From NCBI GenBank assembly GCA_949152475.1, contig OX424557.1:28147462-28211461 (forward strand): DNA of 64,000 nt, written 5' to 3'. Made by a program: the position numbers and the translations under genes. This DNA comes from Terebella lapidaria. Lineage: Eukaryota; Annelida; Polychaeta; Terebellida; Terebellidae. The notes below the pieces were generated by a model. That model made no database searches. It saw only the letters and a list, made by a program, of their open reading frames with translations, and was not told the DNA's origin. Of this stretch, positions 4,801-61,860 are shown piece by piece (positions within the stretch are counted from its first letter, which is position 1; the number at the start of each line of letters is the position of its first letter).

Positions 4801-6793
4801 ATATATTCGCACTTCATTAGTACCCATGTATATTTGATTGTTTCCTGCAATCAGTACCATTTTGAGCTCGTAGAATGGCCAGTTGACTGCAATCTTCACA
4901 AGGTCCCACAGGTGGCACTGCTGTAACGGTCACATAGCATTGACGCTTCTCATTGTCACTCGGGGCACTGGAAAACAACACAAATGACATGATCTTGAAA
5001 ATACACTGACGCTGTGTGAGTTGCTGGAAATCATCAATGCACAAGATAATCACTGAAGAACATAATTGGTATGCTGTTGAGTATTCATTTATTTACCAGC
5101 AACCATGTACAAGGACTCTAGTGTCATCAGTTGGCCATTCGCAAACGATGAGTTGCAGATCTTGTTGAATATCTTCTTCTCCAAATAGCCGCACCTCTGC
5201 CCACTGCAGTGAGAAATATAAGACAAGACAATTACGATAACAATCAAACTCATCCCGAGATTTGCGAAAAAATGTCCTGATTCTCAATACGTACTTTCTT
5301 TAGGCGTTTGTATGGAATGAACCTCCACCACTGCAGCCGAAACACATAGATGGGATAGGCAGTGTGATCATCAGCTTCCACATGCAGGGTATATGAGATA
5401 ACAAACTGGCCACTTTTAGTAAACCCAAGGAATACGTGGCTGGAAAAAAAAAGCTTTCGTTGAATACATGGAGAATACAAATTCCAGACTTCGAGAACTG
5501 TTATTGCCTCCGATATTTCAAATCAAACACATGTTCACAACCAACATCAAACTTCCAGAGTCAGAGTGGAGAACTCTCACAATTTGAGTTATAAAAATAT
5601 TTACCCTTCATCCAGTGTTATTTCATCGACAAGACTCCGAAGCAGGAACCCGAGCCGTCCTGGAAGCTTGCTGTAGACTTGTGAGCTGGCAGTTCCATGA
5701 TAATTGTTGTGTCGATGAATGCCACCAATCTGCAATACAGTATGTCAGTGCATAGTTATTACTGTGAAGCCCATAAATTTTCGCGGATATTGAATTTCGC
5801 TATTTTCGCTATTGAGAAAATTTCACAAAAATCAATGTCTGCAAAAACATTCATTTCGCCAAAACAAATGTCCGCGAATGAGTAAAGATGACAATTCCTA
5901 CTGAAGTTAACCGTCTGTGAAAATTAAGGGCTTTACACAATATTGGTTAGAACTGGGCCTATTACTTTGTCCTGCATACATGGTCAAAAGCATGTAAAAT
6001 GTAGTTTACAAAACCACTATATATAAAAGTGATTCACAATACGCAATTTGCAATATAGTCCGCAATGATACTAATGGCTTTCCATGTTTCATCACTTGTC
6101 ATATATCAAGATTTATTGGAAGATAGACTAGCACGCAAAATGTCACAATGAACCATTGCATTGAATTTGCCTACTTTCCTTTTGGAATTGGAATTTGCCT
6201 TAAAACCTTCCTGAAATATTCAGAGGAGACCCCCTAGTGGCTTCGGCTGTGGGGAATCCTCTTTAAACAAATAAAGTTTACGTTTCAGTTTGCCTATCCC
6301 TCTTCATAATGTTAAAAGATAGCATGTTGTCCAAACACCAGTTTTCAAAGTGTGATGCATATGGCATTGTTTCAAGTGCTAGATTGGTTCATCTACCACT
6401 CTGTCACTGAATCTATGCCAAGCCTAAATAGGCGAGGCTTAGATGGTGATCAGACTCTGATCATCAGAGTGTTAGATAAACCGATCTAGCACGAGAATAC
6501 AATGTCATATGCATTTTCTTGCACGACATGCCAATAAACAGCTGTCAAGGCAAACAAATTATATATTTTACCCGCTGAGTGCCAGATCCAAATATCTTGG
6601 AACTGCTCTCACCATTAGATGGAAATGGTGGAGTGCGAGAAAAAGCTATTTTAAATTTCTCCTCAATGAAAGTGATATTTTTTTTTTTCGTAGATTTATC
6701 AGTAGATCTAACTACAGATGGTTTCTCGGTGCTGTTGAAACGGCCGCGAGACGGCTGTGCACTGTTCAGTGAGAAGGATAGGAAACGTTTCAT
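1828..6793 (-). CDS. DCAF15: DDB1- and CUL4-associated factor 15 (DCAF15), 13 exons
   Basis: DCAF15 is a substrate receptor of the CUL4-DDB1 ubiquitin ligase. Coding exons in transcript order: 6572-6793 (provisional), 5605-5729, 5295-5439, 5097-5203, 4858-4967, 3647-4762, 3402-3505, 3195-3320, 2990-3087, 2845-2903, 2434-2500, 2096-2211, 1828-1883. All have GT-AG borders and compatible phases; total 2451 nt, 816 residues. Diagnostic blocks: HVFLGFTKSGQF and LQWWRFIPYKRLKKV (exon 3), VRLFGEEDI and VCEWPTDDTRVLV (exon 4), VTAVPPVGPCEDC (exon 5), FAVHTKYEL (exon 6), VKQLTLDIEHYLGETIR and FTDYDVQVIE (exon 8), KLIWNLQTG (exon 10), and a C-terminus LTNESVFKGRSLK like vertebrate DCAF15. Exon 6 encodes about 372 residues, mostly Ser/Pro/Thr-rich and probably disordered, making the protein longer than the roughly 600-residue human one. 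The first exon and start (ATG 6791-6793; an in-frame ATG lies at 6830-6832) are weak because the N-terminus is poorly conserved. Confidence 0.9.
5763..5939. mobile_element. MITE-like element in DCAF15 first intron
   Basis: Imperfect terminal inverted repeats: GTGAAGCCCATAAATTTTCG at the left and the complement of AAAATTAAGGGCTTTACA at the right, enclosing about 130 bp with many short TTTCGC / GCGAA motifs. There is no coding capacity. The superfamily is unassigned. Confidence 0.6.
6357..6512. mobile_element. MITE-like foldback element
   Basis: About 47-bp imperfect inverted repeats: the left arm contains GTGCTAGATTGGTTCATCTA and the right arm TAGATAAACCGATCTAGCAC, with a loop of about 60 bp. 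It lies in DCAF15 intron 1 about 60 bp from the proposed first coding exon. It is non-coding. Confidence 0.7.
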
Positions 6794-7497
6794 TGTGGAT
6801 GTGACCAAGTTAGGAATGTAGATCAATGTCATCAGCTGGTCATGTCATGAGCAGATCATACCAGAGGCAGAGGAGTGAGTGCAGACTGCAGAGCCAGTGA
6901 GTAGATCTACATTCACACATTTGCACCTCCATTGTCAATAAAATAAGACTCTTCTACATATTTTGAGTACCTCTCTATATTGTAATCTAGTGATCGGGTG
7001 CAACGGCAATTTTGTGGCAATTCTTCCTCGAAATGTTTCGTTTTTACAGATATTTCTGGAAAAACCGCCTCCACTGTCGGCCATCTTTTTTTACATATGG
7101 ATATGAATGCTGCCATCTGGCGAGTGCAGATGTTTATGGATCGCCATTAAAAACAAAAGCACAGGCGCGCTTCACCTACTTCTCAACGTAAACATTATTC
7201 AACCAAATATTGGGAAATTCCAAAAAGTCGTTGTATAAGTTGGTACCGTACAAAATTTAAACCTTGAACCCAAAACCTTCAACCTGAGCATTCCTGCAAC
7301 AATTTGGAACATTTATGAACTTTCTCAATCAAATGTTAAGATAGCCTATTCCACAAAGTCCAACTCAGTACATGGAATACATCCATTGTTCGGAAATTGG
7401 GGTGTAAATCTACGGACACTGCTAACGTAACAGCGATGTATTGAAATACCACAATAACCATTCTCGTTCACAATGGGAACTTTTAAAAATTGGATGA

Positions 7498-14200: not shown

Positions 14201-17200
14201 AAGGATTTGGTTATCTTGATAAAGCTATTGAGGAAAAATGGAGTCAAACTTAATGACATCTTCCATATGGATCTTAGAACTAGGCCTACTCATTTATGAT
14301 TCAGTTGTGATTGGTCAAGGACTCATCGACTGGTTACATGTTTCTAAAGTATGTGTTTACGAATTATAGCTATCTTAAACAAATAAATGTCCAATTGATC
14401 AAGGTTCAGTTAGAAGCCATGCAATGAGTATTACTTCCCTACTATGGGATGTAGGCCACTATAAGTCGTGTTACTTCATATGGTTTGTGTTCATAATTTG
14501 TAATTTGCCTATGTTTTTATTTTATCGCCAGAACTGCCACAGAACTGCCCAAACTTAGGCTATGTGTACCAGCAGGTGTTTTGTGGGAACCCATGGAGCC
14601 CGAGTGACTGCACACTTGAAGTGTGGCTCTGTGATGGTCGCCAAGATTGCTCCACTGGTCTCGACGAGTCTCCTGCTACATGTTCTGGAGGTTAGCCTTT
14701 CTGACTTGAAATATTGATTTTCCATCATGTTTGGTATTTAAACAGTATGAACATGGTATTTTGTTCTTAACGTGATTACATGTACATCCATGATGTATCT
14801 TGCACTTTGTTGTTTATATTTTTCAGATAACCCCTGCAGAAATATCACCTGCTGGAATGGAGGAACTTGTTATGGTGTTCCCTACCAAGTACATAAGACT
14901 GTAGCTTATCATGTGTGTATTTGTCAGGATGGATATACAGGGCGCTATTGTGAACTGTCACGTAATATAAATGGTTTTACTGCTTCTGATCTCCTGACGC
15001 CAGTGGGTAGCGATGAATTAGCAACATTAGAACCTTCTGACACAAAGCCAACAGAACCACCAACAACTGTCCCCGAGGAAACCACACAATTCAACCAGGT
15101 AATTACCACTGAACCGCCTCCAACACATCAGCCATCAGCAGACACCACAGAAGATGAGATAACATCATTTGATGCCCTGGAGAACAGAGCAAATGACCCA
15201 ACACTGGAGCCTGTGACAGAGCTGCAGCAGGAACCTCGAGCCACTCTTCTGCCTGACGTCTCTCAATGCTTCCCCAGTCCATGCTACCATGGAGTGTGTA
15301 CACCTCTCTGGGAGGGATTCCAGTGTACCTGTCGACCCGGTCAGTGCTACAGCAATGTCAAGAGGCTATTGCCTACAAATAAGTATAGTGAATCTGGACA
15401 TGTGCAATATGGATTAAATTCCGAGTACCATGAGTAGTTCAACTGAGAATTTGGGGGTACTTTTTTTTCTCCAAGCAGTTTCTCAAGTCGAGTAACAAAT
15501 ATTTTTATGATCATTGTCAGAGGGGAATTAAATTGACTGTGTGATTCATATACCTGCAGGCTTCACTGGAACAATATGTCAAATGAGCATCGACCCATGT
15601 GCCTCAGAACCTTGCATCAATGGTGGTGTCTGCTCTGTAAGTATACTAAAATGCCTGTGAACATACCCCAAAAGAACATTCAGCAAAAAGCATTGTACAA
15701 GAGTGTATCTACCATTTATGGGACTTTTCTCTTTAATTCACCCATTGAAATTTTAAACCATTGTCATGCCTACATCAGGTGTCAGGCCAGAGTGAGAACC
15801 CGTTTGTCTGTACGTGTCAACCGGGCTTCACCAGTCGCCAGTGTGAGGTAGCTGTAGACGAATGCAGTAGTAATCCCTGCCAAAACGGTGGAACGTGTGT
15901 GGACCGAGTGGCTGCCTTCACCTGCGAGTGTCGATCTGGATACACAGGTTTGGTTTATGTTTGCTCACGTAATGAACATTTATGTACTTTCTTTCTTTGC
16001 TCGAGCACAATATATACATGTTTTTCTACTCTAATTTATATCCATACAAGTTTTATTTTTCAAAAAATGCAAAATGCTCAGTAACTAGCCTGAAACATGT
16101 GAAAGGTACACATCATTTTGTTAACTTGTGTACATGTACACGTACATGTATGGTGAACGAATATACCCTGATACCTCAAGTATATGTCCCCCCCCCACCC
16201 CTGTATTTGCTACAGGTGCACGCTGTGAGGTTAACATTGACGAGTGTGGCTCCAGTCCCTGCTATCTCGCTGAGGGAGGCTCCTGTGTGGACGGAATCAA
16301 TCAGTTCAGCTGCGAGTGTCCTGCCTCTCGAGCCGGCAGACTGTGTGAGCGCCAGCAGCTTTGTCAGCAAGGTTAGGGGCCACAGAGAACACATTGATAG
16401 TTTGAATGTTCTTATTTCACTTACAACTGTTGAATATTCTGTTTACCTACATAACATGTTACATTTTTCTTGTTATCACTACAGATCCTTGTCTGAATTA
16501 TGGAGTGTGTTTTCCGTCACCCATTCCCGGCCAGCAGCCGACCTGCCAGTGTCTGCCAGGCTTCACCGGGCCATTCTGCGAAGTCAATATCAATGAATGT
16601 ATTGGGAATACTTGTGTCAATGGTAATCAATAAATTGTATAAATGTCTTGTATTATTCAATCAACAACTTTATACAGTACCGGTGTGTACTGTGGAATCT
16701 CTAGATATTCTTTTCTGCAGGTATAACTGAATAAACTTGTGTCTTTTCCTCCAGGTATATGTATGGACAGTATTTTGTCATACACATGCCAGTGTAATGA
16801 AGGTTATACAGGACCAAACTGTGAGACACGAATTGACCCATGCCAGCCGAATCCTTGCCAAAACAATGGCTACTGCTGCAGAAGTGGCAAGTCCTGGTGT
16901 GCCGCACATCTGCCTGTGTGGTACTTCGAGTGCTACTGCACAAACGGCTACACAGGTGAACAGAGACATCCCAAGTCATGTGAAAAATTGTTGGCTGTAT
17001 ATCACATTTAGTAAATGTGAAACATGTTGATGTGAGCATGCTAGAAGTTCAGGCATCTGTATTACCATGTCTATATGCAGGTTCCCGGTGTGAGCGTCCC
17101 CCTGATCCCTGCTCTCCGGACCCTTGCAGAAATGGTGGACTCTGTAACCATGTGGGCACTGGTTATGTCTGCACCTGTCCCGTCAACTATGTCGGTGAGT

Positions 17201-20200
17201 TTCTGTGACAAAAACATAACACTCTCAAAAACAGAAGAAATCGCTGTACCGAAAGAGAGTTATTGGAAGATAATCCTTGAGTTCTAATACTGTACCGGGG
17301 AATGTATTTTTTTTAATACTGATTTTCAGGAACAAACTGTGAAACACCAGCGCCGTGTGCCAGCCAGCCTTGTTTCAATGGTGGCCAGTGTCAAGATATT
17401 GGAGGAGGCCTTTTCCAGTGCACATGTGATGAGGAGCACTTTGGGATGTACTGTGAGAGCATCATCCCCTGTCTGGGGGAGCCCTGCCTAAACGGGGGAC
17501 TCTGTGTCAACCGAGACTCAGGTTATGACTGCCAATGTCCTGCTATATACGGAGGCGTGAATTGCGAGATCTATCTGCCATGTGCTGGGTTACCATGCAG
17601 AAACAACGGACAGTGTTTCCCCGCAGCGAATGGCCAGTTCCAGTGCTCCTGTCCAGCCAACTTCACAGGGACTTTTTGTGAGAGGTTTCTGCAGTGTTCT
17701 AGTCAGCCGTGCCGAAATGGAGGCAACTGCGTAGAGCAGACTTCTGGCTCGTATAGATGTGACTGCCCCCTGCCATACACAGGACTGAACTGTGAAATCA
17801 TCCAATCATGTGCAATGAATCCCTGTGGTGCGGGGGGACAGTGTACCCCAGTAGGGAACAGTTTCATTTGCATTTGCAATCCAGGCTTCACTGGACTGAA
17901 CTGTGAGACATTCATGGCATGCGCCAGCTCACCCTGTGCCAATAATGGCGTTTGTGAAAACACTGGCACAACTTTCAGCTGCACGTGTCAGCCCTCATTC
18001 ACAGGCACTCGGTGCGAGGTTTATATTCCCTGCACCACCACCCCTTGTCTGAACAGTGGAGTCTGTGTGCCAGATGGAACTACATTCCGCTGTGCTTGCA
18101 CGCCTGCCTACACGGGGCCCCGCTGTGAGTTCTTCCGCTCGTGTACAAGCCTACCATGCCAGAACCAGGGCCTGTGTACTGACCTGGACAATGGTCAGTT
18201 CAGGTGCGACTGTCCTCCAATGTTCACAGGGAGGTTGTGTGAGACCTCAATGCTCTGCTTCCCCAATCCCTGCCTGAACAGCGGACAGTGCAGCATACAG
18301 AACGGACAGATCATCTGCTCCTGCGTACCTCCTTTCATGGGTCCGAGGTGTGAGATGCGGGACAACTGCGTCAATCAGCCATGTGAGAATGGAGGCTACT
18401 GCGTCAACCTCGAGACCGGATCCAGATGCCTTTGCACCTCGTCTTACACTGGGATCAACTGTGAGACTTTCCTGCATTGCTCCAGTAACCCCTGTTTGAA
18501 CAATGGAGCCTGCAGTGAAGACGGCAACACCTACCTCTGTACCTGCACGCAGATCTACGGCGGTCGCAACTGTGAGAACTTCCTGCCCTGTGGCAGCTTC
18601 CCGTGCCTCAACGACGCACAGTGCATCAACCGTGGGGGAACGTATGAGTGCCAGTGTCGGCCCTACTACCAGGGCGTCAACTGTGAGGTAGCCACCCAGT
18701 GCGCAAGCTCCCCTTGTCTGGCAGGAATTTGCAACAATGTAGGTGAATCGTACGTGTGCGAGTGTGATGCGCGATTCACCGGCCGCAACTGTGACAGTCC
18801 ACTGATCTGTGACGTGGCGACTTGCATCAACGGGAATTGTCAGGTCATCGGAGGCGTCGGGACCTGTGTCTGTCTTGCAGGGTACACAGGTACGTTGAAT
18901 GAGCATCATGGTCAATACTTCAGTATACATGTAGTAAGACCAGTGTGAGACAATGTGCGAGAATTGTTGCCTCACCTTATATCCATTTATTTCTGATGCA
19001 CTATTATGTACACATATGTATGTGCCGGTACATGTATTGGCACCTATTCTCTCACATTTATGACAAGTTAAAAAGTAGAGCATATTTCAATGTCAGCTTT
19101 ATATACATGTAGAACCCACATAATTGTGTAGTTTAAGTGATGTCATAAGAATACAATCTACATGTAGTACATTTAACTTCAATGCATAAGAGTATTTTAT
19201 GCATAAGTTAAGATGGTTAGCCTGATTACATAGTTCAAAGAATATAGTTATGTTTTACTGTTATTTATGCTGTTTAACAATTTAAGAGCTTTATCTGAAA
19301 AATTTTGACGCATTATGGCTTTCTCCTATTTCAATTTTCACATACCTACTTATATTTCACTGGGAATTATTTTAATATTTCACTTTAGTGTCTCCAATAA
19401 TTCACCACTTAGCATGTTTAGTTTTCAGACATATTCTTTCATTTTTTTCCTTCCCTCTCTCTCTCTCTTGCACTGACCTCGCACTATTTTCCACTTTATG
19501 CCGTAAAGGCGCTGTCTGTGATGTGCCAATCACCCAGTGCTCTGAGCCGTGTATGTCGCCCTGTCAGTGCATAGAGCAGTCTGTGGGCCTGTTTCAGTGT
19601 CAGTGCCCTGTCACCCAGCCTCCCCCCACCCCCCAGACCACCCCCCTCCTAGTGTCCTGCGACTCAGCTCCCTGCTTTAACGGCGGCCAGTGTATCCACT
19701 TGGACAGTGGTACCTTTTGTCAGTGCACACCACCTTACCAAGGTAAGCATTCAACTTAACGAATCACGCATGTGCTGAGGTGAAGTTATTGGGATCCAGT
19801 AAGATTGGGGTACATGTGCATGAAAGTTTTACAGGACATATAAATAAATAACAGCTTCATTGACACTGTTGGGTGACATAATATACATACATGTACTTTT
19901 GCATTCTTAATTACAAATTTTACATTTAGATAATTACATGTATTTGCTTGCACTTTTAATGCAATGATAGCTCATATTAATGAGTTACATTTATTAAAAG
20001 TATACCATACATGTAGATTACCGGCAATTGTTGCAAGCTTGGAGGGTGTAGGTGACAATAACCTGTGGAAACATTTTCTCATAAAATAGTGTGCAAAATT
20101 AATTAATTTATTACCGTTATGCCTTTCACATAATCTCAAAGGATACATAGAAGGTTGGCTTTTACCTCTCTGGCACTTATATGGAATCCTGCTATATGGA

Positions 20201-23200
20201 AACAAGCTTTAACTGTCATGTATTGAAGAGAGAATTCATAAGTATGACTTACTTACATTATAAAAGAGATGAAATCTCTAAAAACTTGCTATCATCTAAA
20301 TCATGTAAATTGATCTTGATAGTACTTTCTTGTACGGTAAGTGAATTGTTTGAAAATATACTCGTAACAGTACTCAAGACTACATGTTTTATAATATTAG
20401 CTGATAATTTAGTAATGATTTTTCTAACACTTTCTGTGCAATTCACATGACATAATTATTAATAGAATCATTTGAAGAAGCCTAGCTTATTTGGACAAGA
20501 TGACTCTGCCATTAGTGAAAGCCATAATTATTTTCCCATCAGTGTATTTTTTATGTCTTATTTATCACATTCTGCAAACTGAATTTTGAGCTTTTCTCTG
20601 CTTTTAAGATTACCCACTGCTTGATACATTTTCTTTCATGCAATTTGTAAGTTAACTTTAAGTTATTTGTACAGCCAATTATAAACACAATTTGTATTGT
20701 AAAATTTGTCATAGATACATGTGCATACACTGTGTACAGGAGCACGGTGTGAGAAGCGAGCTGGGGTGTGCGACAATCGGCCTTGCTTCAACCAGGGACG
20801 ATGTATAGATGACGGATCGTCCTTCAGATGTGTCTGCCAGCCTCCCTGGACTGGTCTGTGTACATTATGCAATGGATTACTTTCTAGACCACCATATGTC
20901 TTGTGTCTTATTATGCTTAAATTGGATGCAATATTGGGGATATCAATCAAATGAAGATAAATGAAGTGTCCATGTATATGCTTTGATTTGCATGCCCTCT
21001 ATCCGATACAGGGGAGGTGTGTGAGGTTGAGATTCGGCTCTGTCGCGAGGGACCCTGCGCTAACGGAGGGACTTGTCATACGGACAGTCTCGGCGTGTTC
21101 TGTATGTGTCTGCCGCAGTATGGAGGCCTCTTCTGTCAGCTCCTGGATGGTGAGTGACTCCAGCCTATTGGCTGTGTGGGTCCGACTGTACTCCATGCCT
21201 AGGATATGAAATAAATGTTATAGCATACATTAAGTATGTAGTAGAGCTACATGCTCATAGGGACACTGTTACATTTATTCACAGGCCTTTGTGACCCTAA
21301 CCCTTGCTTCAATGGAGGAGACTGTTGGCAGGTGGATGGAGCTGCTGTCTGTGACTGCCCCAGGGGAACTGAGGTATGGTTCGATTCGCTTGTACATAAA
21401 ATAAAACTATAACAGGATTGTTTCTTTCCCATTTACTTCAGCTGGAGATTGCAGCACATTCCATGTTCTTTAGCTTTCCAGCCTGAAATTATTTAGCAAA
21501 ATTCACACAATAGTATATCTCTCAGTGCATGAACTCCATGCATACCGTCCTTTTTTGTATCAGGGTCCGCGCTGTGAGAACAGTGTTATTGGCTGTATCC
21601 CCAACCCCTGTAATGAAGGCAACTGTGTGGAGAACTCCCAGGGCAGCTTCCAGTGCACCTGTCCTCCTGACTGGATCGGAGCCCAGTGCCAGATTAGGAA
21701 CCCCTGCTTCTGTAAGGCTCAATCTCACATTAAAGGATTTGATTACCATATTTTCAACGTGATTATTATTATGATCTGATTTGGTGATTAATGGTTTGAA
21801 TAATCGAATGATGAATAATGATGCAAGGTTTACCCAAACCAGAAAGGCTAGAAATGTACAGGTTATTTTTTTACTGAAATGGCCATTTTAATCTATAGTA
21901 AACACTTATTGTATCCCCCGAACAAAGTTCGGCGGATACTATGGATTTACGATCGTCGCGCCGCCGCCGCGTCCGCGTCCGCAGACACTTTCTTGTGAAC
22001 GCACTGCAGCTTGCAAGTATGAACCGATTTTGATAATATTTCATAATACATGTCTTATGGTGAGATCTGGACACCTATCGATTTTGGTTGCCATAGCAAC
22101 CAAAATAGCCGATTGGCGTAACATTTTGTGCTCAAATTAGCCTGTTTAACACACATGAGTTGTGAACGCTCTACGGGTGGGAGTTTTCGATGAATGATGA
22201 TGAAATCGCACAGGCTCAATGAGAAAGACCATCACACGAAACCTATTGTTTTTCAGAATGATCGAATAAATATTAATAAGTTTGAGAGGTTAACTTATTA
22301 CGACAATTAAAATACCTACTTTGACATGTGTGATCACTTCAATAACCTGTACTATGAAAGCAAATTGCACTGGATTCTTGTTCAGAATACAGAACTGATG
22401 TTTTTGGTGAAAAAAGAACAATATTACTGAATAAGTTAATATTGGTTTTACTAGTTAAGTCTATTATCATGATTATTGACCACAATAAAAATAGTTAAGA
22501 CGAGAAACATTTATTATTGAGCTCAACAAGGTAAAGGTTTTGTCCAGTAGAGATTTCACAGGTGTAACCGAATAAGTTAACATTATTTTTACTAGTTAAG
22601 TCTATTATTGACCACAATAAAAATAGTTAAGACAAGAAACATTTATTATTGGGCTCAACAAGGTAAAGCTTCTGTGCAGTAGAGATTTCATGGCTGTAGC
22701 CGAATAAGTTAACATCATTTTTACTAGTTAAGTCTATTATTGACCTCAAGAAAAATAGTTAAGACAAGAAACATTTATTATTGAGCTCAACAATTTAAAA
22801 TTTTTGTCCAGTAGAGATTTCATGGGTGTAACCGGATAAGTTAACATTATTTTTACCAGTAAAGTTAATTTTTACTTCGAATTTCAACTTGGAACCAAGT
22901 TTGGCACATATTATGAATTAAAATATAATTTATGGTGAAAAGATCGATCTGGCTCAAATTTCGTCATTAATGTAGTTTTGGTCAACTTTTACTTTGAATT
23001 TCAACTTGGAACCAAGTTTGGCACATAGTACATGTATGAGTTGAAATATAACTTATAGTGAAAAGTTCGATCTGGCTCCAATTTAGTCATCTCGCAACTT
23101 GGAACCAAGTTTGTCAAATATTCTGAGTTGAAATATAGCTTTAGGTGAAAACTTTTATCTGGCTGTAATTTCGTTATTTTTTTCGAACATGTCGAAATGG

Positions 23201-26200
23201 AAATTCGAATGCAGTGATTTTAGTGGTGATCTTGAATTCGACCTTCAATAAGCTTGAAAGGTTTCACACTCACAATGTACATCAGCGATATATTTGGGGC
23301 AACAGTGATGATAGGGCTATGGGGGATACACCCTAGCGGTCGTAGGCGACCGGAAGCGTCTAGTTATATTGTCCAAACATCTAACATAGTGGTAGAAGTA
23401 TGGCAATAATAAACTGATGTCATTTGACATGTTTTACCACAGCCCAGCCCTGTAACAATGGCGGTACCTGTGTGGCTAACGAGGCTGACTTTACCTGTCA
23501 GTGTCTCAGTGGATTCTCAGGCCCTCTCTGTGGAGGCTCAATGCCTAGGTGTGCAAGTGCACCTTGCTTCAATGGAGGAGCCTGCTCAGAGAATTCCACA
23601 GCTCCATCGGGATTTGTCTGCTCCTGTTTGCCAGGTAATTATGGGTTGTCAGTGTCATGTGTTCAATGCCATAACATGGATAGAGCTAACACAAACAGTG
23701 GCAGATGTATGTGTACCGGGGTAATTGTCTATTTTAGGTTTCACCAGTACACAGTGTGAAGTCAACATCGATGACTGTGCTGGGGATATCAAGTGTTTCA
23801 ATGGAGGAACTTGTCGTGACCTGGTCAATTCCTTCAGGTATTGCCATTTCAATGCCATTGTGAGTTTATGTGTTTTCATTCACATAATACACTATTATTC
23901 ACACATTATGACATTTTGTGCTGTAAAGCTGTAATGTCACATGCAAGACCATACATGTCACATCATCACCATACATGACATCATGCCATGCTCACTGTTA
24001 TGATGGTAACCTGTTGATTCCCCACCCCAGGTGCGACTGTGAGGCAGGCTACTCTGGTACCCAGTGTACCGTGCGTGACACATGTATCAACGAGCCGTGT
24101 GGTCTTCAGGGAACCTGCCAGAGTGTCCCTAACACTGAGTACAACCTGGACTACACATGTGTGTGTCTGCCCGAGTATGAGGGTCCCAACTGTAAACAGT
24201 TCCGTTACTGCTCCTCCTCCCCCTGCAGGAATGCGGGTGTCTGCGCCAACCTACCTACTGGCTTCAGGTGGGGCCCCGGTCAAGTCATAATGAGATCTAA
24301 GTGTATCGTTGACACATTTTTCTATGTACTGTTTTCAAGTACTTTCATATTCTGTCACAGTTGTACCTGCCAACCGGGATTTACAGGACCGACATGTGAG
24401 CAACAGATTCAGGGATGCAATGGTAATTGTCCGTGCATGTTCCAAGTCATGAAATGAGATCACTTTATGATGACTAAGCATGATGAATTGAAGATGATCA
24501 AAATTTGCTGCAGAATAATGATCATGATAGATAAAACCACAATCTTCTCTTGTCTAGGTGTGACCTGTAATGGGCGAGGTACCTGCGTGCCCACCGGTCT
24601 GTTTGGGTATCGCTGTAACTGTACGGAAGGCTTCGTGGGCCAAGACTGTGAGAGCTCTTCCTGTGGCCTCCAGCCCTGCCTCAACAATGGTGTCTGCAAG
24701 GTATCTGAGACTGTTGGCTTCCTCTGTCAGTGTCCTCAAGGCCTTGTCGGTGACAAGTGTGAGACAGGTACGCGTAGATACTTGCTGTGTCTGTGACTGA
24801 GCTTTATATGGTAAACCATAGAGAATGGGGGAAAAAATCTGACCAAAGTTCAAGGTTAAACTATTTTAGCAACAGAAGAGAGGCATTCTTAAATTTGACT
24901 ATCAACTATAATAAAGAGTCATTTGTTTGCGATTCTCCTCTCATCTGCAAAGTTTTGCACTGATCATACATGTATATTGAAGTAGTTGTGGTACAAAAAA
25001 TGTCATGTACTGGATTTACACTTGCCTCACAGCTTCTGAGTCTGTCTGGCCAGAGTTCTCCGGAAACTCCTACTTGAGCCTGCCTCTAGTACCTGGACTG
25101 TCTGACCGGACTGCGATTGAGGTCCGCTTCAAAGCCAGTAACGGAGATGGATTGCTGCTCTATGCCAGCCACTCAGACACAGCGAATGGGGACTTCATGG
25201 CACTTGGCCTGGAGCAACAGGTCCCTGTCTTCAGGATTAATCTTGGTATGTAACCGCTCTGTTACACTGATTAGTAGAATGTGCATATATTTGAATATAT
25301 TTAACTGGATTTGGACAGGGTTGTGAATTATGGAGATATTATAGGTAGTTTCAGCTAGATCAAACCGAACAGTATATCTGTGACAGTCCGATATATGTCC
25401 AAAATATTTTTCAACTTTGAGGAAACCATTAAGTTTCACAACAGCATATGCTTTGGAATCAGGTTCTGGAGTATTGCCATTACGAGGACAGGCTCTGATG
25501 CTTGACATGTGGCACACAATCAAGATCACGCGTGTACAGAGGAGTACGGAGATGAGGGTAGGTGACTTCATTGTCCAGGGCCAGGCGCCTGAGGGCAGTG
25601 TGGGGCTGACACTGGAGTCTCCCATTTCCGTGGGAGGGGTCAGCAACTTCAGCGAAGTCAACCCCAGGATCGGGTTCTCCACCGGCTTCCAGGGCTGTGT
25701 GCATGATGTCAAGGTATATTACATGGCTTCCATTGTACATACATCATGTATCAGATTGTAATGTTTACCATCTTACACATGGTGACCTATGGCTATCAGT
25801 ACATTCCATCCCATTTTCAGGTGGGTCAAAGTCAGGCAGCACTATTGCCATGGGGCGATTCCGTAGAATCTCAGGATGTGAGCTCCTGTACCTCAGATCC
25901 CTGCACTGCCCACAACTGTGCTAATGGAGGTCAATGTATCATGGACTCTGGCTCAGGGTTCTCCTGCCTCTGTCCTGTGGGCTTTGGTGGAACATCTTGC
26001 ACTCAAGGTAGAGATCAAATCTGTCACTATTCACTGATCGATTGCCATTGTCGCAGATTTTGACTGTAATCTGAAAAAAGGAGAATATCGGTGCTTGAAA
26101 TACACATCTGATTTCTTTCAGTTGTAGCCAGACCGACTATCCCCGGTTTCACTGGCGCCAGTTACCTACACCTGATGTCGCTGCCTCTCACCGGCCAAAA

Positions 26201-28186
26201 CCTTGCCATGAGTCTGGATTTCCGCCCCACTACCCCTGACGGCATCCTCCTCTACACTGCCGAGGACAACGACTTCTTCTCGCTGTTCCTCTCCGAGAGT
26301 AACCTGTACTTCGCCTTTGACCTTGGCTCTGGGTCAGTGACCTTGAGGTCCCTATCCACGGTCACTCTGAGCACGTGGTCAACAGTAAATATTGTTCGGT
26401 CTGGGGTCAGGGCTCAGATGGTGCTTGGAGTTGATCGTCCAGTTGTTGGGAATGCTCTTGGATCTAACCTTGGCTTGGATGTCGGCAATCACATGTACGT
26501 CGGTGCTGTGCCTCCTACTGTTGGTGTCCGCACTGAAGTACTCACTGACGTTGGTAAGATACTGTGTGTTGTGTCATGGAGTAGGGAGATATCTTTTATA
26601 AACTACATTTCATGGAAGTGATGTCATGCAGTTATATATAATGTACGTGGCTTTCTCCTGAAGGGTTTTCTGGATGCATAAAGGATATGACAGTGCAGAA
26701 TGCCGCTGTAGACCTGACCCTAGTCAGCGAAGGGTTCGGTATCGGGACTTGTACAGTACCCGCTTGTGATGGGAACCAGTGCACCAGTGGCTCCACCTGC
26801 AGGGCTTCCACTACAACTTCTCGGGGCTATGAGTGTGTCTGTCCTGCTGGCAAAACAGGTCAGCAGCAAATGTTTGAATACTTGAATAATTTAATGACTT
26901 GTTGATATGATACAAAAATTCTGACTACTGATATATGTATCTGCGACGCTTGCTCCTCTCCTGCACAGGTATATTCTGCGAGGCCAACATGTGTACATCT
27001 GGTACGGAGTGCAGGAACAACGGGCAGTGTGTGAGGAACACCCAGGGAGACTCCCAGTGTCTGTGCACATACCTGTGGATGGGACCCACCTGTAGCATCA
27101 GTATGCACTCTATTTTCATTTTGGATCGTTAGTTGCCGTCAACATTGAAAACTGTCAATTTCAAACAGTTTCAAAGTATTTTTCTTTTCATTACAGGTTT
27201 GAGGTTTTCTGTGGCATCTTTTGCTTCCAATGGCTACCTGGCGTATGCAAATGAAGACTTTATAGGGTATGTACTTGTTGATTTCAAAAATTGTATCTCC
27301 ATTGTGCGAAAATTGTGTTGTCTTTGTTATGATAGTTTCATTGCTATGCATGATATTTCATGTGGAGTATTATTGTTGCAGGTTCCAGTTTGCCGCTGTG
27401 GAGATTGTTTTCAGAACAGCCCTCCCCAATGGGCTACTGGTGTGGATGGGAAAGGTGTGTGGTTTATTTATGGATGTCCATTATTACACATTTTCAGGAA
27501 ATAACATTTTGTGAGCTTGTGTCTTTTCATTCTCAGGCTGATGAGGAGTTCCTTGCACTGGTGATCCGCAATGGAATATTGGAAGCTCGGTAGGATTGTG
27601 ACTTGTGAACTTTAGTATCATGTACATCATACATGTACAGCAAATATGCAGATGAATTGTATTGTGTACCAGTAACTTGCAGTATGACCTACTTGAGATT
27701 TTCTTTCCTCAGGATAAATCTAGGAGGTGGTTCTGCTGATGTCATCACGCGAGAAGTTGTGGACAACAATCAGTGGACCTCAGCTAGATTGATACTGTGA
27801 GTTATTGCTTTGTGGTTGGTTATGCATCTAACTCCAAAATATCAGTATGAATGACTATCAGAATACCGGGGTACATACTCTTCATACATATCACCAGATC
27901 CAGTACTGTGATATCCCTGGAAGTCACCAACCAAGTTGGCCACACAAACTCCTACTACGGTCGGGCACCAGGCTCAGACAACCAGCTGACCGTAGGGACT
28001 GAGCCACTTTACATTGGGGGGCTGCCGGGTGGGGTGGCTCTGGGTACAGGAGGCATGTTCCAGGATGGACTGGGGGGCTGTGTCATCCAGCTCAGGGCAG
28101 CTCGTCTGCCTCAGCAATACACGGACATCAGGCTGCAGGACCAGGCCGTCAGCGGAGCTGGCATTGCCACTTGCGAGATATCTTGA
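11237..28186 (+). CDS. Large secreted EGF/laminin-G protein, eyes shut/agrin/perlecan-like, 31 exons
   Basis: Likely an extracellular matrix protein. Exons: 11237-11291, 14532-14690, 14827-15339, 15560-15636, 15779-15947, 16216-16371, 16485-16622, 16755-16955, 17081-17194, 17330-18889, 19509-19742, 20740-20853, 21012-21149, 21285-21373, 21564-21711, 23443-23634, 23738-23837, 24031-24267, 24361-24422, 24558-24767, 25033-25245, 25463-25713, 25821-26007, 26122-26553, 26664-26858, 26969-27100, 27197-27266, 27382-27454, 27537-27589, 27713-27796, 27898-28186. Total 6645 nt, 2214 residues, all phases compatible. Order: signal peptide (1-18), LDL-A-like module with CDGRQDC and DES (~22-70), EGF, Thr/Pro-rich linker (~115-205), about 35 more EGFs to ~1555, LG1, EGF, LG2, two EGFs, LG3 to the end. 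There is no transmembrane segment, which argues against Crumbs or Notch. The EGF array plus LG/EGF alternation favours eyes shut; the LDL-A and the LG pattern recall perlecan/agrin, so orthology is open. Confidence 0.87.
11457..11581. mobile_element. MITE-like inverted repeat in first intron
   Basis: Left arm AATAATGTATAGATTTAGAG followed by TAATTGTC; right arm GACAATTACGACAAATCTAT followed by ACATTATT. The loop is about 65 bp. It is non-coding. Confidence 0.65.
12282..12342. repeat. Perfect 21-bp stem hairpin, copy 1
   Basis: GACTGGATACAGTGTTTGAG plus G at 12282-12302 is exactly complementary to 12322-12342, with a 19-nt loop. This is part of the composite element. Confidence 0.9.
12933..12993. 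repeat. Perfect 21-bp stem hairpin, copy 2
   Basis: Identical stem to the hairpin at 12282-12342, displaced by 651 bp (12933-12953 pairs with 12973-12993). It lies in the second copy of the duplicated unit. Confidence 0.9.
13697..13840. mobile_element. Foldback element in first intron
   Basis: Left arm contains ACATGGTTTGTTTTGTATCA then TGCCC and TATCATTGCCC; the right arm carries the complement, ending GATACAAAACAAACCATGT. The arms are about 45 bp with small mismatches. It is non-coding. Confidence 0.7.
17330..18889 (+). other. Exon 10: about 14 EGF modules in one exon
   Basis: A single 1560-nt open exon encodes residues ~528-1047 of the EGF/LG protein. About 14 consecutive six-cysteine EGF modules begin with motifs such as [65 protein letters not shown] and LPCGSFPC. 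Few show the calcium-binding D-x-D/N-E start, unlike modules in exons 5-7 (VDECSS, IDECGS, INECIG). Flanking EGF exons usually carry one or two modules. Confidence 0.9.
21911..23340. mobile_element. 1.4-kb non-autonomous DNA element, copy 2
   Basis: The element sits in the intron between exons 15 and 16 of the EGF/LG gene. Ends are GTATCCCCC (21911) and GGGGGATAC (ending 23340). After a GC-rich left end come about four ~115-bp AT-rich tandem units with GTTAACATTATTTTTACTAG (22430-22870). Then come about three ~120-bp units with TTCAACTTGGAACCAAGTTT (22880-23170). It is the inverted match of 251-1046. No transposase is seen. Confidence 0.75.
25033..28186 (+). other. C-terminal laminin-G/EGF block of the EGF/LG gene
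   Basis: LG1 (exons 21-22) includes the DGLLLYAS strand and ends [11 protein letters not shown]. An EGF follows in exon 23 (NCANGGQC). LG2 (exons 24-25) has [18 protein letters not shown] and ends [11 protein letters not shown]. EGFs follow in exons 25 and 26. LG3 (exons 27-31) has [17 protein letters not shown] and LYIGGLPGG and ends [11 protein letters not shown]. The stop at 28184-28186 follows about 30 residues after the LG3 cysteine, with no membrane anchor. LG3 is split over five short exons. Confidence 0.88.
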
Positions 28187-30137
28187 AGTAGGCCGAGGCC
28201 TACAGGAACACAAAACGGGTCGCATTCGAATATTGAACAAGCTCACCTGTAGCTCTAGTATGTATGTTATGTTTGAATGAGATTTCAGACCTCTCACTTT
28301 TGTGTGCATTTGCCAAACAAATTGTTATAGATGTTCCATGGCCATGTACTGCCAAGTGCACTGTTGAACTTTAGAAGAATATAGGATTGGTGAAATGCAA
28401 AAATCTGTTGTGACATGTTTTTACTGCATGATAGAGAGCTGGATTATTTGCTTCATCCAATATGAGTTTAAATCAATATTTGGATTGCTCTTCTTGATAT
28501 AAAGGTCCATGTAGCTACAACAGATGCTAGTCACACGCCTAGTCATATGATGAAGGGAGTCGTAACAGTATCAGTATACATTTGTATGCAGAAACCCAGA
28601 ATATATGGGTATGCCAGAATATGCTGGTACATGTACATTGTATATGGGACCAATGCAATAATTTTTATCCTTGTCAAATTGTGTAAATTGTGTATATACA
28701 TTAACATGTAGACAACCTTCTCACAAAGAATCATTCCACATCGGGACACAATTAGTTGTCCAACTGCATTATTTTCATGTGTGATGCAATACCAAATGTT
28801 TTCACGAACAATGGTGCTGTTTTGACTTGAATGTGACGTATGTATGAATATGAATGTGACATGTTCAGCGACTATTCTAGTCTTCCCAGTAAGCATGAAG
28901 GTATACGTTATCTTCGAGTTCTTGCCATTATATTCCAATCATATTTACCAGTGTATTCATGTATTATACATATCATTTTTTAAGCTAGTCAGCAACTTAC
29001 AGTTCATTATTTCCTTTGCTATACTCTGATGAATCATGGATGTGGATATTGGTCATTTTGTCAATCAATTTTTATTATTACCAGTATACAGCTTTTTTGG
29101 CGTGTAACATTCGAGACACATTTTGGTTTATAATTTTTGTTTACATTCAATGTTACCTGTAATCTTGGTGGTTGGCTACATGGTGAATAAATATTTTATA
29201 TCTATGAGACTTGTATTTCCTCACAGAGTGAGCTGGATGTTGAAAATATTTGAAGCTGGGGTAGTCAAGTATCCTCAAAATGATATACTCCACAATCAGT
29301 TATAAACTGTACATTGTTGAGTTGGCTTCTGGTGCAAAATATTAAACCAAATTTAGCAACAAAATGCTGAAAATTTATATTAAATTTGTTCAGAGCACAT
29401 AATTGAACATGCATCAACCTAGCAACTTACTGTATTTTTTCTATATCCCATTCATATTTGTTGCACATATGCCACATGAATAAGCATAATTGCGTATATT
29501 AAATGTTCTAAAGAGTTTAAATGAGCGGTCCCAAACAGATCACTACAAAACGGTACAGCATAAAATATACAAATCCAGTTGACATATTTACAGAATACCA
29601 CTAAAATGCAACATCAATGCAAATAAACTTATTGACACATAAGTTGATACGAAAAACAATTCCTGAGCACTGATTGGTGTCTGCGATGAATCAGCAATAA
29701 TATCTACAATGTATACATGAAGGAATATGCCAGTAAATAGTTATCAGGGGTTGTTCAAGAAAGCGAAACAAAATTTTTCATTTCAAGTCTAAAGTGTTAC
29801 AATTAATGTGATACATTTCTGGAAAGAACATGATCATTCATCCACATTGTACAACTAAACACTGCTCACATCATCATGATCACAACATTATAATGGTAAA
29901 CACCACTATGGTACAAAGTTGATGTATTCATAGGGTATAAAACCATCTAAGATGAAATCTGTATAAACATCCTAAATGCTGCAGAACTGCACCAACTCTT
30001 CTATAGTGATCACCAACATTATTCCTTAAAGTACCAATATGATTACCAGGGTATGAAAACTTAAACAACCATTCATATATACATATTTATCCTTAGAAAA
30101 GACCCCAATACTGCGAGTGATTCCCCAGTCGGAGAGC
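28187..30137. other. Convergent 3' region between EGF/LG gene and PM20D2
   Basis: AT-rich sequence without exons or clear repeats. A candidate plus-strand polyadenylation signal AATAAA is at 29186-29191, about 1 kb after the EGF/LG stop. The part near 30137 should be the PM20D2 3' UTR on the minus strand. Short open frames are not supported. Confidence 0.5.
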
Positions 30138-33100
30138 TCAGTCACCCTGTTCTGAGGTTTGAGACCTCATTCTCTGCAGGAATGCTGCGGAGCTCCTGCG
30201 ACCGTGCTGCTCCTGATGCTCTCTACGGATTGACTCCAGTATCGGCCGCGATGACAAGATCTCGGCAGCTGTCAGCGTCATGGCCTTCGCAGCCCGCATA
30301 GTGTTCTCTGAAAATTTCCAGCACGGAATCATGCAGGTGTATTGCCATTGTAGTGACTATTCTGAATTGACTGAATTTGGCTATTTGCTATGCGTTATCA
30401 TGTTGCTATGATACCTGCTGCTTCTTGGGATCCAGCTGATTCATGGAACTCCACAGAGTGGATGTGACTGCGCTTGCCAATGTCATAGGCTGGCATGATA
30501 CAGGGCACAACTTGCGAGACATTGCCAAAATCAGTTGAACCTGCCAAGAATAAGAAATAAGCATGACATGTTATAATAAGCAAGCATTCTTGGTACCGGG
30601 TAATTAATTTCATACTGAACTTGACCAGTTCAACTTTTCTAACAAACCTATATGTGTTTCCAGGTCATTGTATGCCTCGGAGAACTGAATGCCCAGATTC
30701 TGTGCCTGTTCCTTGTATATTTCTCCAATGGTTACGTTGGGCTCCATTGGGTAGTATGGTGTCTCCTCAAAATGGAAGGTAGCTTCACACCCAGTGGCCT
30801 GTGAGGATTGTCTTGATATTCTCATACCCAATATATATACCGAGTAAATTATTATTTTTGTACCTCTAAATTATTATACATAATCATGAGCGAATGACAA
30901 ACAAATAGAATGATAGAGTTATACTCTGACTCAATACACACCTTTGCAGCAGCTACGAAGCAAGCTGTGCACTTCTGTTGGATCAGGACAAGGTCTTTGT
31001 GGTTTGGTGCCCTCAACCAAAACTTCAGCTCAGTGAATTCAGGAATCACATTGGGCTGCACTCCACCGGATAAAATAATACCTGGCAACAACAAATATGA
31101 ACTTCATGATAGTACATGTACTGGGATATCCGCTCAATCACCTGTGAATATTAAATATAAAATTTATGGAGATTTGACTTTCAGTACTCTGTACTGTTAT
31201 AATATTGTTAATGTTTCCATGAAACAAGCTTCATATGCAATTTATACACAAGAATATAAATACAGACACAAATATTGATTAAAAAGACATGAGTACCATT
31301 GATACTCCAAGTTGGTTTCATCTGTTGTCTCAGCAGGCCGACATTGTTGTAACATGCTACCGCTGCATCAAGCGCATTCCTTCCCTCCCAAGGAAATGCT
31401 GATGCATGAGCTGCTTTTCCACGATACTTGACTGTCACGACTAGTAACGTGTAGAACTTTGGGTAGAGTATGTTCTTGTTGAATGGTGAAAGCATCATGC
31501 AAATATCTAAGTTCTGGAAGATTCCTTGCCGCACCATTCCAATCTTCGTACCACATCCGCAGTCTTCCCCGGGTGTGCCCAATATGGTTATCTGAAAATG
31601 TCAGAAAGTCTGGTTGCAATATGTAATAAACTCAAATCAAAACATAAAACTGGTTCAGGATAAACATGTTATAAGAAACACACATTCATAAAACTGAAGA
31701 GGTTCAACAGGAAAGATTCAATTTGTCTGATAAATGCGCTTGTTTTCACAACGAATTTGATTTTGTTAAATTATGCTGATTTTCTGGGACAGTGTGATGG
31801 ATTTGATGCAGTTCAGCCTCATTCTCACATTCTGCTGTGACAACACAATGATGACACCAGTTCCGGGAAAAATCATTCCCAGTACAGGTGTCATGGAAAC
31901 CACAGATTTCGTTACTTTTGATTATATTTCTTTCGTAATCGTGTGAGAAAATGCATTTGGCATTCTTTCTAGTGTGATCATGATCTTTCTCAGCACTTGT
32001 CACCGAATCTAGGACTCGCCTGAAGGCTCGGCCTGGATTCGGTGGCCTACGCTGAGAAAAATCATGATCACACTCGAAAGAATGCCATATATTAACAGCA
32101 TGCCCAATTTGTATGGAGTTCCACAGGCGACAAACGACATACGACATACCACATACGACATACTACTTACGACATACTACATACGACATATGACTTTAAA
32201 AGTGACCAGGGTGAAAGTAGCCATGAAAACAAGGCAAGAGCAGGGTGTATTTCGAGATTTTTTTTTTCGTGAAGGTGAACGAAAAAAAACAACTTAAAAT
32301 ACAACCTGCTTTTGCCTTGTTTTCAGGGCTATAGGGTGAAAGTGACTTACCACTGTATGACATCATGGTACATACTTCATACGACATACTACATACGACA
32401 TACATATGACATACGACATACGACATACTACATATGACATACGACATACTACATATATATATATGACATACTACATATGACATACGACATATGACATATA
32501 ACATATGACATACGACATACCACGTACATGTGACATACCACATAATACATATGACATACTACATATGACATGGTACATACGATTATTACGACATATGACA
32601 CACTACATGACTACATGAACAACTTTTGTCATCCCTGAGGTGGTTTTCTTTGTTTAAGTAGTGATTGCACATCGTGCCTCAGTCCTTCTGAGGCGGCCAT
32701 GAGAAAGTTTTTTCTTTCAATGTTAAGGATAGGGTGGTATGTCGTATGTCATATGTCGTATGTCATATGTAGTATGTCGTATGTCATATGTAGTATGTCA
32801 TCACTGGTCATATGTAGTATGTCGTATGCATGTAGTATGTCGTATGTCATATGTAGTATGTAGTATGTCGCCTGTGGAACTCCATAGATTTGGTCCATAG
32901 GACACCCAACAGATAACTTAGAGGCCCAAGCTTTAAAGCCTTTCTTCGAATGTCTGGAGGGTATCCGATTATTCATGCATGTCACCTTTGCATCAAGCAG
33001 ATTCTTCTTGACACATTCTTTGATGGCCAGTGCTGCAGCAACACTGGCTTGGCTCTTCAAGTTGTGACCGGCTGCATGACCAACTTCCGCAGTGGCGTCA

Positions 33101-33399
33101 TACTCGCAAATGAAGCAGATGTTGGGTCTGTTCCCACTGGCATCGCCCGCCCCTGTGTTGTCGGCCGCGCCCCCACTGCTGTCGAAAACCGCACGGAAAC
33201 CAGTCGGGGCCACAAAACTTTTCTCCACAACAAAATGTTCCTTTTCTAGAAAGTCTGTCAGGAACTGATGTGCACGAGTTTCACTGAAACTTGACTCTGG
33301 ATTTTGCCATAGGAAACGTGAAATCTCTTGAACGCTGTCTTTCCTCGAACAAAACACTTCTTCGATGACATTTTTCCAAGCTCCTGAATTTGCAGCCAT
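30138..33399 (-). CDS. PM20D2: Peptidase M20 domain-containing protein 2 (PM20D2), 6 exons
   Basis: Family role: cytosolic M20-type dipeptidase thought to remove unwanted beta-alanyl dipeptides. Exons in transcript order: 32986-33399, 31297-31591, 30942-31081, 30648-30798, 30415-30540, 30138-30307. Total 1296 nt, 431 residues, close to the human length; all junctions are GT-AG and in phase. Start is the ATG giving MAANSGAW. Family landmarks: CEYDATAEVGHAAGHN (98-113), LGTPGED (142-148), VKYRGKAAHASAFPWEGRNA, LRQQMKPTW, GGVQPNVIPEFTELKFWLRAP, GSTDFGNVS (334-342), ESAGSQEAA. Against the family motifs as I know them (GHACGHN, GTPAEE, MAHPS, GIHPYF), Cys is Ala110, the second Glu is Asp148, one His is Ser173 and another His is Met349. 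It may be catalytically impaired or a pseudoenzyme. Intron 1 (1.4 kb) holds foldback elements. Confidence 0.93.
31959..32086. mobile_element. Foldback element in PM20D2 intron 1
   Basis: Left arm starts GGCATTCTTTCTAGTGTGAT and right arm ends ATCACACTCGAAAGAATGCC. The arms are about 36 bp with few mismatches, around a loop that has its own short inverted repeat (ACCGAATC / GATTCGGT). It is non-coding. Confidence 0.8.
32112..32886. mobile_element. Foldback element with arms of CATACGACATA arrays
   Basis: The outer ends are inverted copies: TATGGAGTTCCACAGGCGAC at 32112 and GTCGCCTGTGGAACTCCATA ending at 32886. Inward of them the left and central parts carry arrays of ACGACATACTACATATGACA-like units (about 32133-32195 and 32370-32610). 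The right part (about 32735-32865) carries the reverse complement, GTATGTCGTATGTCATATG. Single-strand folding would give a long imperfect hairpin. It starts 26 bp after the foldback at 31959-32086. Frames read through it have no meaning. Confidence 0.85.
32225..32323. repeat. Nested inverted repeat within the foldback element
   Basis: AAAACAAGGCAAGAGCAGGG at 32225 is mirrored by CCTGCTTTTGCCTTGTTTT near 32305-32323, with similarity extending outwards on both sides. The loop contains runs of T and A. It looks like a second, independent insertion into the left array. Confidence 0.75.
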
Positions 33400-36749: not shown

Positions 36750-37189
36750 AAACAGCGTTCATTATGACTTTCTGAAATCCTGTTTAGATTTATGATAGTG
36801 GTGAGTATAATGTTATCAGCTATGTCAACCTGCTCATGTCATACGGTTCACTCACAGAAGTCAGTCGCTGCTGACAGTCACACTGACAGTCATTGACAGT
36901 GCTGTGCAGTGCAATGCCAATCATCATGACTGCAGTGTAGATTGTTACTCACCAGCGCACAGGGCCAAGATCAATTCAAACTGGCTAGAATGTACAATAA
37001 CGTGGGTAATTTTATTACCAACTAATTTCTCATACTTAGGATCCGGAATGACAATTGGTTATGATTTAAAAGTGTTCTTTAGTACACACCAGATGTTCTT
37101 TTTATCTGTAGAGCGCACAACACAGTTTTCGTCACCTCTCAGTTTTCGTCAGGTGGTCTTCATAGGTTGATTTCAATGATTTAACAAAA
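36750..37189. repeat. 440-bp direct repeat, copy 1
   Basis: Matches 37665-38104 over its full length with no difference found by eye, displaced by 915 bp. It includes the candidate donor GATAGTG/GTGAGT and an 88-codon frame present identically in both copies. The copies lack LTR-like TG...CA ends. Confidence 0.9.
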
Positions 37190-37664: not shown

Positions 37665-38104
37665 AAACAGCGTTCATTATGACTTTCTGAAATCCTGTTT
37701 AGATTTATGATAGTGGTGAGTATAATGTTATCAGCTATGTCAACCTGCTCATGTCATACGGTTCACTCACAGAAGTCAGTCGCTGCTGACAGTCACACTG
37801 ACAGTCATTGACAGTGCTGTGCAGTGCAATGCCAATCATCATGACTGCAGTGTAGATTGTTACTCACCAGCGCACAGGGCCAAGATCAATTCAAACTGGC
37901 TAGAATGTACAATAACGTGGGTAATTTTATTACCAACTAATTTCTCATACTTAGGATCCGGAATGACAATTGGTTATGATTTAAAAGTGTTCTTTAGTAC
38001 ACACCAGATGTTCTTTTTATCTGTAGAGCGCACAACACAGTTTTCGTCACCTCTCAGTTTTCGTCAGGTGGTCTTCATAGGTTGATTTCAATGATTTAAC
38101 AAAA
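37665..38104. repeat. 440-bp direct repeat, copy 2
   Basis: Second copy of 36750-37189. The flanks diverge immediately after the shared ATTTAACAAAA. Confidence 0.9.
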
Positions 38105-57995: not shown

Positions 57996-58195
57996 NNNNN
58001 NNNNNNNNNNNNNNNNNNNNNNNNNNNNNNNNNNNNNNNNNNNNNNNNNNNNNNNNNNNNNNNNNNNNNNNNNNNNNNNNNNNNNNNNNNNNNNNNNNNN
58101 NNNNNNNNNNNNNNNNNNNNNNNNNNNNNNNNNNNNNNNNNNNNNNNNNNNNNNNNNNNNNNNNNNNNNNNNNNNNNNNNNNNNNNNNNNNNNNN
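57996..58195. other. Assembly gap (200 N)
   Basis: Exactly 200 N, so probably a placeholder length. It sits at the left edge of the ~73-bp minisatellite, where assembly would be expected to fail. The true array may be longer. Confidence 0.99.
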
Positions 58196-61857: not shown

Positions 61858-61860
61858 CAT

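Follow-up and report, generated by a model that had tools for sequence, protein, structure and literature searches.

A minus-strand gene in the window, which is the whole 64,000-nucleotide stretch of Terebella lapidaria DNA analysed here (C3:28147462-28211461 of the 761.6 Mb assembly), encodes a PM20D2-like protein in which four of the five metal ligands are replaced, one conservatively and three being lost. We concluded that the gene is probably a divergent PM20D2 paralog that has turned into a pseudoenzyme with its fold kept. This is the best reading because the ligand changes are real, the gene is intact and four canonical sister genes are present in the genome, and it supports what the sequence-only reading had proposed from the loss of metal ligands with conservation of the fold.

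The gene model was rebuilt by script and extends from an ATG at 33399 to 30138, with 431 codons plus stop in six exons separated by five GT-AG introns (Table 1). No stops, frameshifts or broken splice sites were found in the coding exons, and the rebuilt model bore out the earlier description of an intact gene of this length and exon number. A search of the window with the proteins of the sister genes and with the solved PM20D2 chain gave 49 matches. The 18 that fell outside the six exons all had E values of at least 0.93, and no convincing extra PM20D2-like exon was detected in the window. When the window protein itself was searched against the window, matches beyond its own exons appeared only at E of 3 or above. 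Neither AATAAA nor ATTAAA was present in the 837 bases scanned downstream of the stop (29301-30137). Two fold-back structures were observed in intron 1. The larger element (32112-32886) has inverted ends (TATGGAGTTCCACAGGCGAC..., 55 nt, 91% complementary) and encloses ACATACGACAT-type tandem repeats, and the second is a hairpin (31955-32090) with 67 nt arms that are 82% complementary and 2 nt apart.

Table 1. Positions of the PM20D2-like gene and its discussed codons in the window, and places of the sister genes in the assembly
Feature	Position	Strand	Remarks
Exon 1	32986..33399	-	residues 1-138; GHAAGHN (A110, H112) and EYDATAE
Exon 2	31297..31591	-	residues 139-237; GTPGED, MLSPF; lid-domain KAAHAS, WEGRNA, QQMKPTW
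Exon 3	30942..31081	-	lid/dimerisation domain; Asn247 and Arg260 kept
Exon 4	30648..30798	-	
Exon 5	30415..30540	-	GSTDFGN and CIMPAYDI
Exon 6	30138..30307	-	includes stop codon; C-terminal tail exceeds all four sister models
Intron 1	31592..32985	-	fold-back repeats at 32112-32886 and 31955-32090
Codon 110	33070..33072	-	Ala replaces metal-bridging Cys; Cys in 79/79 prokaryotic relatives, 7yh4 and 4/4 sister genes
Codon 112	33064..33066	-	His; sole ligand left unchanged
Codon 148	31562..31564	-	Asp replaces ligand Glu (conservative)
Codon 173	31487..31489	-	Ser replaces ligand His
Codon 200	31406..31408	-	lid/dimerisation-domain His, kept; His in 79/79 relatives
Codon 349	30494..30496	-	Met replaces ligand His; His in 4/4 sister genes
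Sister PM20D2 pair	C1:74.29 and 74.32 Mb		protein search
Sister PM20D2 gene	C1:60.14 Mb		protein search
Sister PM20D2 gene	C12:30.11 Mb		protein search

Other features of the window were recorded alongside the gene. On the plus strand, 14751-28183 holds open frames that encode numerous EGF repeats along with laminin-G domains and are convergent with the PM20D2-like gene; they may belong to a single gene of the eyes shut or crumbs type. An open frame on the minus strand at 3582-4850 matches DCAF15_WD40. An exact direct duplication of 440 bases (36750-37189 and 37665-38104, 915 bases apart) is either a very recent event or an assembly effect. Large arrays of a 73-base satellite occupy 58196-61859 and 63320-64000, with consensus units in opposite orientation, and the former adjoins a 200-base N gap at 57996-58195.

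Judged from its sequence, the gene is a member of PM20D2 / M20D (peptidase family M20) by descent. A phmmer search of the window protein against solved chains matched PM20D2 7yh4 (E 3.2e-92) and 8xzc (E 1.1e-91) as well as HmrA 3ram (E 1.9e-55). The similarity to PM20D2 was full-length, with 43% identity to 7yh4 and 34% to 3ram; another alignment, made with the sister proteins, gave 42% identity to the solved PM20D2. The Xaa-Arg dipeptidase chain in 7yh4 and 8xzc is taken by us to be human PM20D2. Both Pfam domains passed their cut-offs, Peptidase_M20 with 26 bits against 24.6 and M20_dimer with 35.4 bits against 21, and the amidohydrolase model TIGR01891 of NCBIfam scored 149.8 bits, just below its cut-off of 153.75. 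No relatives were found in viral contigs.

We took the ligand-to-metal assignment, in the order Cys (bridge), His, Glu, His and His, from M20D structures and assumed it to hold for the window protein. The substituted residues listed by the sequence-only reading were recovered exactly, in GHAAGHN at 107 (A110), GTPGED at 143 (D148), MLSPF at 171 (S173) and CIMPAYDI at 347 (M349). For comparison with prokaryotic M20D relatives, we took the best 80 out of 528 candidates that had been confirmed and used 79, locus L032 with its frame of 12 aa being left out of the counts. Invariant in 79/79 were C110, H112, E147, E148, H173, H200, R260, D337 and H361, where the invariance at 110 and 112 was partly built in by scan patterns that required [CA] and His at these positions; positions 148, 173 and 349 were absent from the patterns. 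E148 and H173 were also invariant in the solved PM20D2 and all four sister genes, and C110, H112, E148 and H173 in all five canonical animal sequences. Changes at positions of such invariance go beyond chance. The earlier statement that metal-binding residues had been substituted stood in full for positions 110, 148 and 173 and less strictly for 349, at which 70 of the 79 prokaryotic relatives carry His and the other nine Gln. These nine Gln-carrying loci (L002, L003, L004, L007, L009, L017, L022, L038 and L074) are spread over several separate groups of the tree.

On the assigned ligands, the window protein would be without the bridge and both His of the second metal, and the first-metal ligands left would be His112 and the shortened acid Asp148. 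In the M20D aminoacylase 6slf a Cys bridges two zinc ions (PMC11511702), and position 110 of the window protein falls in the alignment column of this Cys. According to PMC4000134, none of the five M20 zinc ligands is missing from HmrA.

Apart from the ligands, the conserved positions were partly kept. The window protein retains H112, E147, H200, N247, R260, D337 and H361, among them the general base Glu147, and N247 is found in 78 of the 79 prokaryotic relatives. It is altered at C110, E148, H173, H349, L103, P104 and H236, and also at I115, A146 and R234; these majority residues occur in 75, 76 and 75 of the 79. Substrate-binding and dimerisation motifs had been described as kept, and this was true in part. 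The Leu103-Pro104 of EYDALPG, present in 79/79 relatives, is Thr-Ala in the window protein, and His236, present in 78/79, is Asn.

A canonical PM20D2 paralog elsewhere in the genome had been proposed as a check on the sequence-only reading. In a protein search of the species' own 761.6 Mb assembly we found at least four further PM20D2 genes at three places (Table 1), and all five ligands (Cys, His, Glu, His, His) are canonical in 4/4. The models of these sister genes (L107, L108, L109 and L110) have seven exons each, with open frames and GT-AG introns. Compared by residue number, the introns of the window gene at 138/0, 236/1, 283/0 and 375/1 (residue/phase) appear to be common to the sister genes, where their counterparts lie at 133-135/0, 231-232/1, 283-284/0 and 362-365/1, with the numbering of L108 displaced because its N terminus is longer. 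The sister genes have introns near residues 45 and 183 that are missing from the window gene, whereas an intron at 333 is present only in the window gene. The preferred splice choice of L108 has phase 1 at the second junction, in contrast to phase 0 in the other sister genes. L108 contains two alternative GTPAEE-MAHP exons (3364-3508 and 5374-5525), which are both ligand-canonical and possibly mutually exclusive, and a lid-domain exon of L107 (GVITNGGVKPNIIPE...) is duplicated at 6203-6357 and 6841-6995 with few residue differences. A search of the same genome with Pfam profiles gave one match only, an M20 gene at C1:28530561 (L081) that by eye looks like an M20A/PM20D1-type gene. Even the window gene was missed by this search, probably owing to the shortness of exons.

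Phylogenetic analysis placed the window protein with its animal homologues. In a tree of 30 rows, consisting of the window protein and 29 others hand-picked from a total of 86, all six animal sequences (window protein, solved PM20D2 and four sister proteins) grouped at 100/98. When the sister genes were left out, in a tree of 82 rows, the window protein stood beside the solved PM20D2 at 100/99. The order within the animal group was weakly supported, and a clade uniting the window gene and its four sister genes was not rejected (p-AU 0.263). The branch of the window gene in the 30-row tree was the longest at 1.57, compared with 0.06-0.77 for the other animal sequences. Its protein is 36-40% identical to the sister proteins, whereas identities among the canonical animal sequences lie at 46-56%, except for the tandem pair at 87%. 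At sites with a bacterial majority residue, 39 changes were found only in the window protein, compared with 18 unique to the solved PM20D2. We read the window gene as an old or fast-evolving divergent paralog and not as a recent copy.

A long branch and many private changes are also what a young pseudogene would offer, that is, a redundant PM20D2 copy that has lost selection and is decaying with its frame open by luck. The four or more canonical copies could have made the window gene dispensable, its first intron is full of repeats and the polyadenylation-type hexamers are missing downstream. The distribution of the changes points the other way. Among positions conserved in at least 85% of the prokaryotic relatives, 4/5 ligands are changed compared with 11/74 others (Fisher p 0.004). 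In a stricter set, for which we required no variation among the five canonical animal sequences and conservation in at least 95% of the prokaryotic relatives, 3/4 ligands and 4/41 others are changed (p 0.009). Two further counts were less favourable to a pseudoenzyme. A looser set of 125 positions, those without variation among the five canonical animal sequences, contains 44 that are changed in the window gene, comprising 4/5 ligands and 40/120 others (p 0.05). No clustering of changes within 12 residues of the ligands along the sequence was detected over residues 24-405 (18/47 compared with 25/77, p 0.56). We then compared the gene with neutral runs, a proxy in which substitutions started from its present coding sequence, ended when 4/5 ligand codons were changed and ignored indels. 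The frame was kept in 2/4000 of these runs, and 11 or fewer of the 74 other conserved positions were changed in 19/4000, the mean being 61% changed. Simple neutral decay fits poorly, since so few simulated runs kept the frame. The real gene, in addition, has all 431 codons and every splice site intact, and the identity of its lid domain to the canonical sequences still stands at about 48%. A young pseudogene was therefore considered unlikely.

The identities to the canonical sequences were 48% for the lid domain and 38% and 35% for the two catalytic segments of the window protein, compared with 57, 52 and 49% for the same segments between canonical pairs. By position counts the lower divergence of the lid domain was not significant (11/44 changed compared with 32/80, p 0.12), and it would fit, less firmly, with dimerisation and ligand binding having been kept.

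The changed metal use that the sequence-only reading had named beside a pseudoenzyme survived as a minor alternative. The protein would in that case be a neo-functionalised metalloprotein whose site binds a single, perhaps softer, metal and serves a different reaction or a sensing function. Candidates for such a site are His112, Asp148 and Met349 together with the gained Cys149, Cys151 or Cys347. These three Cys adjoin two of the altered ligands and are found in 0/5 canonical animal sequences at the same positions, and Cys at position 347 occurs in 0/79 prokaryotic relatives. A single-zinc relative, CA_C2195, whose metallopeptidase-like domain belongs to the same structural clan, is described in PMC4000134. 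The overall Cys content is nevertheless not raised (12, compared with 9-12 in the sister genes), and one sequence cannot show any conserved new motif. We regard a new metalloprotein function as improbable. An artefact, with the canonical residues hidden in an alternative exon that was overlooked or removed by mis-assembly, is very improbable indeed. The two alternative exons of L108 show that the PM20D2 family does alternate exons, but the window yielded no additional PM20D2-like exon, and the four changes lie across three exons, each as an in-frame codon change in otherwise clean coding sequence.

Returning to the pseudoenzyme, the absence of the bridging and second-site ligands would mean that the two co-catalytic zinc ions cannot be held. 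The window protein very probably holds no pair of zinc ions and hydrolyses no dipeptides by the M20 mechanism, as far as can be predicted from its residues. Two features count against a pseudoenzyme: the protein has not lost its general base, and Asp148 may be able to bind a metal. With less certainty, the protein may still fold, dimerise through its lid domain and bind an amino-acid- or dipeptide-like ligand. Its role would be that of a binding protein, or of an inactive partner that alters the activity or stability of canonical PM20D2 subunits. Each active site of an M20 dimer receives the lid His of the opposite subunit, and a metal-less subunit that bears His200 could thus in principle complete the site of its partner. 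A partner role with canonical PM20D2 is suggested here tentatively. The wider proposal, of a conserved animal PM20D2 pseudoenzyme that forms mixed dimers with canonical subunits and tunes dipeptide turnover, is more doubtful; in such a dimer His200, Asn247 and Arg260 of the pseudoenzyme would be lent to the active site of the partner and no metal site would be contributed.

An intact gene without the metal site, beside four canonical sister genes, offers a natural test of the M20 fold without metal and also of the capacity of M20 subunits to form mixed dimers. If true, mixed dimers would mean a regulatory subunit in the PM20D2 family. The gene is also a warning, as homology-based annotation would call it a dipeptidase. 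Loss of catalysis within an enzyme family is of a common kind, since PMC12869072 counts about 8% of the enzyme-like genes of Drosophila as pseudoenzymes. Among the matches listed in our literature searches, which covered titles, the starts of abstracts and passages, no M20D or PM20D2 protein without metal ligands was described, and among the same kind of matches no regulatory subunit of the PM20D2 family. A review of inactive metallopeptidase homologues (PMC11266112) gave no M20 example in the parts covered, where 'M20' occurred only within journal numbers of the reference list. No M20D member was called inactive in the parts covered of an Anisakis paper (PMC10050594) and a degradome paper (PMC7804941), nor was an M20D/PM20D2 member without metal ligands named in those of PMC8879239 and PMC11511702. 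The loss of the metal site in an M20D/PM20D2 gene appears, within these sources, to be a new example.

Similar losses are known from other metallopeptidases. In the alpha subunit of MPP (M16B) the fold is kept and the zinc-binding residues are lost (PMC11266112), as we propose for the window protein, and Ecm14 (M14) is another metallopeptidase pseudoenzyme (PMC7706225); both belong to peptidase families other than M20, unlike the window protein. Within M20, MEROPS lists 'non-peptidase homologues', exemplified by an Anisakis simplex protein in M20F (PMC8879239), and this class includes active hydrolases with a function other than that of a peptidase, for example ArgE and DapE (M20A; PMC11511702). 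The HmrA-type prokaryotic M20D relatives (3ram and the 79 loci) are of the same subfamily as the window protein and differ from it in having a complete metal site, apart from the replacement of His by Gln at the fifth ligand in nine of them. The nearest system is PM20D2, the Xaa-Arg dipeptidase of 7yh4 and 8xzc, which has in common with the window protein the lid/dimerisation domain, the motifs QQMKPTW, GSTDFGN and AGSQEA, the general base Glu and the lid His, Asn and Arg. Compared with 7yh4, the window protein is without four of the five metal ligands, the LP of EYDALPG and His236.
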